Source: a virus | IMG/VR virus record: IMGVR_UViG_3300025890_000123 | Coordinates: 1 to 27,461 of that record | Strand: one strand, 5' to 3' | Length of the DNA: 27,461 bases | Part shown: positions 7,742-11,744 of the stretch, one piece after another | Layout of the letters: each line of letters opens with the position of its first letter | Numbering within the stretch: position 1 is the first letter of the stretch | The notes under the pieces: generated by a model | What the model was told of the DNA's origin: nothing | Seen by the model: only the letters and a program-made list of their open reading frames with translations | Database searches by the model: none | Translations under genes and position numbers: made by a program

Positions 7742-7770
7742 AGTATACAGCATTATTAAGCAGTTGTCAA
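7742..7770 (-). promoter_or_regulatory. Consensus sigma70-type promoter for the leftward late unit
   Basis: On the minus strand, TTGACA (7765-7770) is separated by exactly 17 bases from TATACT (7742-7747). The -35 is a perfect match and the -10 matches five of six consensus bases. It points into terS. The expected transcription start is at or within one or two bases of the terS ATG. Confidence 0.8.
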
Positions 7771-7828
7771 GTAATATTTTATCAATTCCTTACGGAATCT
7801 TGTTTTTTAATTAACAATAAAATAACAC

Positions 7829-7857
7829 TTGACAGAATAACAAATCAACTGTATACT
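7829..7857 (+). promoter_or_regulatory. Consensus sigma70-type promoter for the rightward early unit
   Basis: TTGACA (7829-7834) is followed after exactly 17 bases by TATACT (7852-7857), the mirror partner of the leftward promoter 58 bases away. The next rightward gene starts about 700 bases downstream, so transcripts from here would have a long AT-rich leader that includes the 17-bp repeat array. Confidence 0.75.
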
Positions 7858-8105: not shown

Positions 8106-8124
8106 TCACCTGCCTACCCCTAAT

Positions 8125-8226
8125 GAGAATGACTCTCAAATGCGAATACTTCTCAAACGTTAAAGATTCTCAATTGCGAATACTTCTCAAACGCGAATAC
8201 TTCTCAAACGTTAACAATAATCATTC
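8125..8226 (+). repeat. Tandem 17-bp iteron-like array
   Basis: Six consecutive 17-base units can be laid end to end. Units at 8142, 8176 and 8193 are identical (GCGAATACTTCTCAAAC). Units at 8125 (GAGAATGACTCTCAAAT) and 8159 (GTTAAAGATTCTCAATT) are diverged copies that keep the TCTCAA core. The unit at 8210 is more degenerate and resembles the 8159 one. Such arrays often bind a replication initiator or a regulator along one face of DNA. Position between the divergent operons supports a regulatory or origin role; neither is shown. Confidence 0.7.
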
Positions 8227-9931: not shown

Positions 9932-9940
9932 ACCAGAAAC

Positions 9941-10010
9941 AAAAAAGACTGTACAACACTGCTCATATTTAATAGTGTGGGCTTTGTTGTGTTGTTTTAA
10001 TTTGTAACAG
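9941..10010 (+). repeat. Imperfect leader repeat, copy 2, with hairpin
   Basis: This copy of the segment at 9569-9646 contains ACAACAC (9953-9959) and GTGTTGT (9989-9995), a perfect 7-bp stem ending in a T-run. It lies 10 bases after the stop of the 81-residue gene, so it may act as a terminator or attenuator. Confidence 0.45.
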
Positions 10011-10016
10011 GGCGGG

Positions 10017-10170
10017 ACAGTGCAGGACTGTAAATCCTGTGTGGCATATTTATATGCACCCTTAAAGCTGTTTGCCGTGGCGCTAGTGTGACTTGATGAA
10101 TCACTAACCACGAACTGCTACACGCCTCAGTATGGCGTTAAACTGCTACTTTGACGCTGATGTAGGGTTG
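10017..10170 (+). ncRNA. Possible structured RNA
   Basis: Consecutive stem-loops can be drawn: CAGGA-CTGTAAA-TCCTG at 10023-10039 (shaped like a tRNA-Tyr anticodon arm), GCATAT-TT-ATATGC soon after, ACGCC-TCAGTAT-GGCGT at about 10121-10137, and a 10-bp stem with wobble pairs from CTGATGTAGG to CCTGTATCAG at about 10157-10184. No canonical tRNA D-arm, T-arm or acceptor stem is found. It may be an untranslated leader with regulatory folds or a small RNA. Confidence 0.35.
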
Positions 10171-10230
10171 CAAACCTGTATCAGTATTGAGTAGACCTGA
10201 GCATGTCTTTAAACTGCTTACACTTTAAAT

Positions 10231-10251
10231 TAACTTTAATAAAAGGAAATA
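10231..10251 (+). repeat. 21-bp translation-leader repeat, copy 2
   Basis: This is the second copy of the leader seen at 9661-9681, differing at one base. Its AAGGAAA is the ribosome site for the gene starting at 10255. Confidence 0.6.
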
Positions 10252-10254
10252 AGC

Positions 10255-10701
10255 ATGGCGATTTTAGATGTATGCGACTTGGATATGATAACAAAGGAAG
10301 ATATTCTGGCCTTAGTATCTTTCCGCAGAACCTTAAACGGCAAACTAGTTATTGCCGCTGTTCACGGTGATATTAAAGGGAAAGTTCGGGGCAATATTGA
10401 AGGTGACCTTGAAGGGAATATCAATGGCGATATTACAGGCGGTGTTAGGGGCAGTGTCGGTGGGCATATTAGAGGCGATGTCTTGGGCCATATAAAAGGT
10501 GCTGTCTGGGAGAGTGTCAGCAATGTTCACGGAGATGTAAAAGGTAATGTCTGGGGCGATGTAGAAGGAGATATTCACGGTAATGTGAAGGGCAGTATTG
10601 ATGGTAATATCTGGGGTGATGTAAAAGGTAATGTTTGCGGTAGGGTAACCAAGGAATTTCATGAACAGGAATGGGATGATATGTTTGGAGGAAAAGAGTA
10701 A
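10255..10701 (+). CDS. Tetrapeptide-repeat protein (G-[DN]-[IV]-x)
   Basis: After a 36-residue non-repetitive N-terminus (MAILDVCDLDMITKEDILAL...), residues 38-131 consist almost entirely of about 23 four-residue repeats, such as GDIK, GKVR, GNIE, GDLE, GNIN and GDVK, with Gly first, Asp/Asn/His second and Ile/Val third. One short break occurs around residues 84-92 (WESVSNVH). A Glu/Asp-rich tail (FHEQEWDDMFGGKE) ends the protein. Such spacing suggests a stacked beta or collagen-unlike solenoid with an Ile/Val core. Similar Gly-Asp/Asn-Val strings occur in other phage proteins of unknown role. The gene has its own ribosome site and overlaps the next gene by one base (TAATG). Confidence 0.75.
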   Translation: MAILDVCDLDMITKEDILALVSFRRTLNGKLVIAAVHGDIKGKVRGNIEGDLEGNINGDITGGVRGSVGGHIRGDVLGHIKGAVWESVSNVHGDVKGNVWGDVEGDIHGNVKGSIDGNIWGDVKGNVCGRVTKEFHEQEWDDMFGGKE

Positions 10702-10910: not shown

Positions 10911-11744
10911 ATGATTACATTATATGACGTTATTGAAAGCGACAAGATAAACGACAACGCTAAAAACTGGGCATTGGAAAATATAGAGTACTTAAAAAAG
11001 CCAATGAAATTATTCGGCTCATCACAAAAAGTAGAAAAGGGATCAGACAAGTTTAATACTTATATCTTATATCTACAGCCTGCGGATAAGGTAGCGACAC
11101 AATCGCTCTGTGTCTTTGCGGATGACGCGGGATGTAAAAACCCATGCTTAATTAGTAGCGGACAATTAGGTATGTCAGTCGGACAGAACGCAGCGACTAA
11201 GCGCACGATACTAATGTTACTGCGGCCAGAGTGGTTCAACGAACAGCTCTTAATTGAAATTGATAAGGCAGAAACCAAGGCTTTGCGGGACAATATCCCT
11301 GCGTTGTTTAGATTAAATGGTACAAGTGATATCGACTTTGGTAGCATTATAAAACAACGTCCTGCTAGTATGTTTTACGATTACACAAAAGTATTAGGTA
11401 GAGTTAGAAAGAATAAGCTTACCAACTATGATTTAACTTTTAGCGGGTCAATGTATAGTGATCAATCAAGAGCGGCATTGAAAAAAGCAGTGAAGCGTGA
11501 TTACAGGATAGCTGTAGCAGTCAACACAAAAGGCATACAGCGTGACCCGTTACAAGTACCGACAAGGTTTATGTCATTCGACAAAACCGATTTAAGACAT
11601 CTTGACAAGGCAGGTATCGGACTGTTAAAACGTAAAGGCTCTAGCATATCAGAGAGAATAGCAGAAAATTCAAAAGCTAATTCATTCTTTGTAACTAGCG
11701 CAAACGTGACTGCTTTTAATAAGATAATAGCAACAGCAACATAA
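10911..11744 (+). CDS. Gp88-like phage protein
   Basis: The 277-residue protein resembles the gp88-like family (named from mycobacteriophage gene 88; also common in marine phages). The recognisable order is ADKVATQSLCVFADDAGCKN with PCLISSGQLG (Cys-rich, about residues 59-88), a conserved KRTILMLLRPEWF segment, then FRLNGTSDIDFG, SMFYDYTKVLGRV and NYDLTFSGSMYSDQ. The clustered Cys residues could bind metal. The biochemical role of the family is unknown to me. It is preceded by an AAGGGA ribosome site and directly follows the 69-residue gene. Confidence 0.75.
   Translation: MITLYDVIESDKINDNAKNWALENIEYLKKPMKLFGSSQKVEKGSDKFNTYILYLQPADKVATQSLCVFADDAGCKNPCLISSGQLGMSVGQNAATKRTILMLLRPEWFNEQLLIEIDKAETKALRDNIPALFRLNGTSDIDFGSIIKQRPASMFYDYTKVLGRVRKNKLTNYDLTFSGSMYSDQSRAALKKAVKRDYRIAVAVNTKGIQRDPLQVPTRFMSFDKTDLRHLDKAGIGLLKRKGSSISERIAENSKANSFFVTSANVTAFNKIIATAT

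Follow-up and report, generated by a model that had tools for sequence, protein, structure and literature searches.

Proteins of the pentapeptide repeat family have a five-residue A(D/N)LXX period and form a right-handed quadrilateral beta-helix with four repeats per coil; the pentapeptide-repeat coil of SV2C comprises 20 residues. Bactofilins are also beta-helical; each coil takes up 16-18 residues, and Gly sits at the turns (PMC4372379). T4 gp5 carries an octapeptide VxGxxxxx motif (PMC4576200). The window analyzed here, a viral record of 27,461 bases (IMGVR_UViG_3300025890_000123), encodes a protein with a four-residue unit, G-[DN]-[VI]-x. This protein resembles the pentapeptide repeat proteins (Rfr fold) in its D/N residue and inward hydrophobic residue, and it is predicted to coil in the same right-handed, four-sided way with four units to a turn, but its unit is four residues long instead of the five of A-[DN]-L-x-x, and a Pfam search with it gave no match to the pentapeptide repeat family.

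The protein displayed 13 four-residue units from residue 38 onwards, followed by the three-residue unit NVH (residues 90-92), which moves the register by one, and 10 further units ending at residue 132 (Table 1). Gly occupied the first position in 22 of the 24 units and I, V or L the third position in 23 (I or V in 22 of the 23 complete units). Of the 24 units, 15 carry D or N at the second position; the remaining ones have S, H, K, G, A or R there. A Gly/aliphatic score that permits a single register shift came to 46, whereas 20,000 shuffled sequences averaged 17.8 +/- 1.7 and none exceeded 27. DNA self-identity reached 0.51-0.56 at lags of 12, 24 and 36 bp, against 0.22-0.31 for lags that are other multiples of 3. 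The tetrapeptide repeat is real, and both the near-invariant Gly and Ile/Val and the 12 bp DNA period noted in a preliminary description of the sequence were confirmed. That description had counted about 23 units over residues 38-131; the repeat itself stands, but the count becomes 24 units over residues 38-132, one of them a residue short and another, ESVS, lacking Gly.

Table 1. Coordinates of the repeat gene, its parts and its downstream neighbours in the window.
Feature	Position	Strand	Basis or remark
Shine-Dalgarno-like AAGGAA	10243..10248	+	sequence, ahead of the repeat-gene ATG
Tetrapeptide-repeat protein gene, 148 aa	10255..10701	+	ORF and homologues
N-terminal module, residues 11-37, helix and beta-hairpin, predicted solenoid cap	10285..10365	+	AlphaFold pLDDT 85-93; held-out profile; dN/dS 0.14 against L169
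24 tetrapeptide units G-[DNS]-[VI]-x, residues 38-132	10366..10650	+	repeat statistics and models
Register break at units ESVS and NVH, the latter a residue short	10510..10530	+	also present in L169 (GSVNNVH)
C-terminal tail QEWDDMFGGKE, residues 138-148	10666..10698	+	matches the mid-part of a separate downstream ORF in L169
Downstream ORF, 69 aa	10701..10910	+	overlaps the repeat-gene stop codon; no family match (Pfam, PHROGs)
GP88-like gene	10911..11744	+	Pfam PF17338, E 8e-23; phrog_1617, E 2e-38

The polymerase and terminase of the window were closest to those of the Pelagibacter phages HTVC103P, HTVC104P and HTVC115P (48% and 65-68% identity, respectively). Its late genes (terminase, portal) are on the minus strand, and the plus strand carries the replication and nucleotide genes. 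Within this block the repeat gene lies near the start, an early-type context that supports the earlier suggestion of an early gene. The parts of HTVC103P and HTVC115P that were searched contained no run of three or more tetrapeptide units, and the gene therefore looks accessory. The preliminary description had also proposed co-translation with the gp88-like gene. The 69-residue ORF lies between the two, and no gp88 match was seen beside the repeat gene of a syntenic relative, L169, indicating that the linkage is not conserved and is incidental.

Some non-coding features of the window were recorded as well. At 7742-7857, between the late and early genes, there are two promoter-like sites, one per strand and facing outward, with the same hexamers (TTGACA-17-TATACT, 11/12 matches); the promoter scan total for this region was not above chance. 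An imperfect 17-base tandem repeat in five copies at 8122-8210, between the divergent gene blocks, is a possible origin or regulatory site. The non-coding leader of the repeat gene (9932-10254) folds better than its shuffles (z -2.88), is part of a stretch 91% identical in L169 and had no match in Rfam. The tRNA search returned nothing.

A close-relative search with the single window protein found nothing, an alignment search gave no conserved stretch, and the one tblastn match of the 38-residue N-terminus was put down to chance. Repeat-bearing proteins whose N-termini also matched were detected by tblastn in S-SKS1 and Octadecabacter DB virus 2. Family ORFs were then collected by pattern scans of IMG/VR, which give lower bounds: at least about 90 distinct family ORFs were found in viral contigs, with 6-85 units and a median of 17 among the matches listed. 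A conserved N-terminal module of about 35 residues followed by 6-85 units was found in at least 83 phage ORFs, and a helix-like motif, loosely defined, preceded the repeats in all 83 listed ORFs with a complete 5' end. An N-module profile trained with each cluster (45% identity) held out detected 61 of 63 N-modules at E < 0.01, that of the window protein included, although some N-segments retain a few irregular repeat units, which can aid detection. Among 967 neighbour ORFs, such profiles matched 0 to 2.

Three members came from isolate phages, namely SWZG_00239 of Synechococcus phage S-SKS1, DB2_74 of the Octadecabacter virus and gp10 of Roseobacter phage CRP-6. All of these are annotated only as hypothetical and share the N-module and tetrapeptide units with the window protein, but differ from it in repeat number and C-terminal end. 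The CRP-6 member, of 65 residues, adjoins thymidylate synthase and lies upstream of primase and polymerase. Among 84,980 prokaryote species genomes, the pattern scan gave 102 stretches, one of which had the N-module; this sole convincing member, L258, is from a Planctomicrobium MAG. Pfam, PHROGs and NCBIfam hold no model of the family and gave matches to the repeats alone, and searches of the literature turned up no description of a tetrapeptide-repeat family in phages. The proteins thus make up a widespread, large and apparently uncatalogued phage family. Its members keep the same period and regularity, as the preliminary description had anticipated for homologues, and they are common in viral metagenomes, contrary to its view that period-4 repeats are rare.

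Tandem paralogues were present at L065, L078 and L094. In L046 (193-786) and L168 the repeats are followed in the same frame by a DUF3310 domain. Similar tetrapeptide strings without the N-module occurred in proteins of Clostridia and other MAGs (L254, L255, L260, L295, L313, L317), several of them near 500 residues. Two further bacterial tetrapeptide-string proteins (L297, L325) have a C-terminal G-K-x-W motif resembling the GRKW end of cyanophage-type members. The two best plasmid matches (Lactococcus, Enterococcus) were on the strand opposite to an annotated gene and were dropped. Many other pattern matches were filtered out as chance DNA repeats, GGVT, PGPV or VSGL strings, or tail fibres.

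Gene context was analyzed within 5 kb of 95 family loci. In raw, uncorrected counts, polymerase was a neighbour at 26 loci, DUF3310 at 21, primase-helicase at 15, exonuclease at 12, RNR at 12 and ThyX at 10, and metallophosphoesterase was also recurrent; terminase occurred at 9 of the 95. The genes neighbouring the family are replication and nucleotide genes, not virion genes. This context bears on the idea that the protein is a virion spike or fibre piece, akin to the triple-stranded beta-helix of T4 gp5 or to tail fibres with GNVT strings. The window protein does share with these the Gly/Val alternation and D/N on the surface, it matched phrog_430 (baseplate hub and tail lysozyme) at E 1.3e-6, and tail-fibre and gp5 matches appeared among isolates. 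The phrog_430 match, however, lies on the repeats only and spans profile positions 398-501 of 868, without the gp5 OB-fold and lysozyme domains. The gp5 helix is trimeric, belongs to a large tail protein and has a period of 8 (VxGxxxxx; PMC4576200), whereas the window protein is a stand-alone protein with its own N-module and a period of 4, encoded beside replication genes. Across the family, Ile alternation adds a weak eight-residue component to the period of 4. Taken together, a virion role appears highly improbable.

The relative L169 is syntenic with the window, with flanking DNA 90-96% identical and adjacent ORF proteins 100% and 98.6% identical, and its repeat gene encodes roughly double the number of units. 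In an alignment of 131 codons between the two genes, dN/dS was 0.54 for the repeats and 0.14 for the N-module, which is under purifying selection. Identity at unit positions 1 to 4 was 22/23, 12/23, 17/23 and 10/22: the positions predicted to point inward are kept, while those predicted to point outward vary. The last 11 residues of the window protein match the mid-part of what is, in L169, a downstream ORF of its own (L169:6411-6703), and the C-terminus of the window protein is therefore probably a deletion fusion.

The single-chain AlphaFold model of the window protein (24 sequences) had a mean pLDDT of 69.7, with 85-93 in the N-module and 58-79 in the repeats. That of the relative L202 (also a single chain, 15 sequences) reached a mean pLDDT of 87.5 and a pTM of 0.68 as the best of five, and may be optimistic, since the other four had pLDDT 64-71. 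It consists of an N-terminal helix and hairpin, repeats with one strand residue in every four, and a C-terminal helical hairpin. For both models the best superposition was on bactofilin 6rib (window protein, Z 11.2, rmsd 2.0 A, 88 residues; L202, Z 9.0, 2.5 A, 94 residues), although Z values near 9-11 can reflect a shared arrangement only. A Foldseek search with the window model gave no significant match to any solved structure. On SV2C (5jlv), 72 residues of one model aligned to 89 and 75 of the other to 91, a ratio of 0.81-0.82 that is close to 16/20 and suggests 16-16.5 residues, or four units, per coil. Left-handed beta-helices in the fold lists aligned only at rmsd 9-11 A, and the models were therefore taken as right-handed. 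RTX and ice-binding proteins in the same lists were set aside, as only 8 of about 1,770 residues at the exposed position 4 are Thr and no ladder occurs at lag 3 or 4.

Independently of the models and with duplicates masked, adjacent units carried Ile together at position 3 less often than expected (z -4.7) and units two apart more often (z +4.6), with no bias for units three apart. This points to an even number of units per coil, against a 12-residue triangle, and fits a 16-residue coil and an eight-residue period equally. An N-capped right-handed beta-solenoid, roughly four-sided and with about 16 residues per coil, is fairly likely from the models, in agreement with the tight beta-solenoid of the preliminary description. 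A low-complexity expansion, mostly disordered and without a defined fold, would account for the modest confidence of the window model and the drifting copy number. It would leave unexplained the conservation of positions 1 and 3 beside variable positions 2 and 4, the Ile alternation, the conserved N-module and the ordered L202 model, and we regard it as a very poor prospect.

The likeness to bactofilins raises the alternative of a polymer, in which units stacked end to end would form filaments organizing replication or the infected cell. Besides the structural match of the models, bactofilin (PF04519) was the best, though weak, Pfam match of the window protein (E 0.019), and in 30 of 78 members the chain stops no more than 8 residues after the last unit, which may leave the C-terminal end open. 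The score nevertheless stayed below the gathering threshold (15.6 against 27.9 bits), the strict period of 4 and the location in a phage accessory gene set the protein apart, the conserved N-terminal cap would block one end, and 25 of 78 members have long C-terminal tails, one of them modelled as a helical hairpin. We consider such a polymer unlikely.

A predicted four-sided rod that resembles pentapeptide-repeat proteins could also imitate DNA, as the gyrase inhibitors MfpA and Qnr do; DNA mimicry was one of the two roles suggested in the preliminary description. The repeats are mostly mildly acidic (family median -8 per 100 repeat residues), some members reaching -19 per 100 residues, but others are neutral or positive, and the net charge of the window protein is only -3 over 94 repeat residues (-8 over all 148). 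No charged stripe was found at the four-unit coil spacing. DNA mimicry is thus quite improbable. Nor did any surface ladder recur at a spacing of four units across the family; like the missing charge stripe, this argues against one ligand face shared by all members.

The reading we prefer, tentatively and as plausible but short of probable, is an early accessory four-sided solenoid that binds and blocks a host protein. From the association with replication modules, the accessory and phage-restricted distribution, the fast diversification, the tandem paralogues and the conserved cap, we infer an intracellular binding protein that would be expressed early. The conserved helix and beta-hairpin would cap the solenoid at its N-terminus, with Gly (position 1) and Val/Ile (position 3) facing inward and positions 2 and 4 on the surface. 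Length would shift through gain and loss of units and the surface positions would diverge fast, so that the exposed face of a modular rod could be retuned. Blocking that host protein while the phage replicates may serve takeover of the cell or counter-defence. PADLOC defence models, a library of defence and not counter-defence proteins, gave no match.

These results define a phage family that is unnamed in the searched libraries and is a probable four-residue addition to the beta-solenoid repeat proteins. Such a very regular, short solenoid would be of interest to protein designers, and its design, simple and variable in length, allows the evolution of the surface and its binding to be tested directly. 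More speculatively, and as a possibility we hold to be rather unlikely, the phage-restricted superfamily of tetrapeptide solenoids may represent recognition rods that evolve readily as phages and hosts compete, in which the N-cap would stay fixed while units were added and the surface changed rapidly to suit host targets differing by phage.
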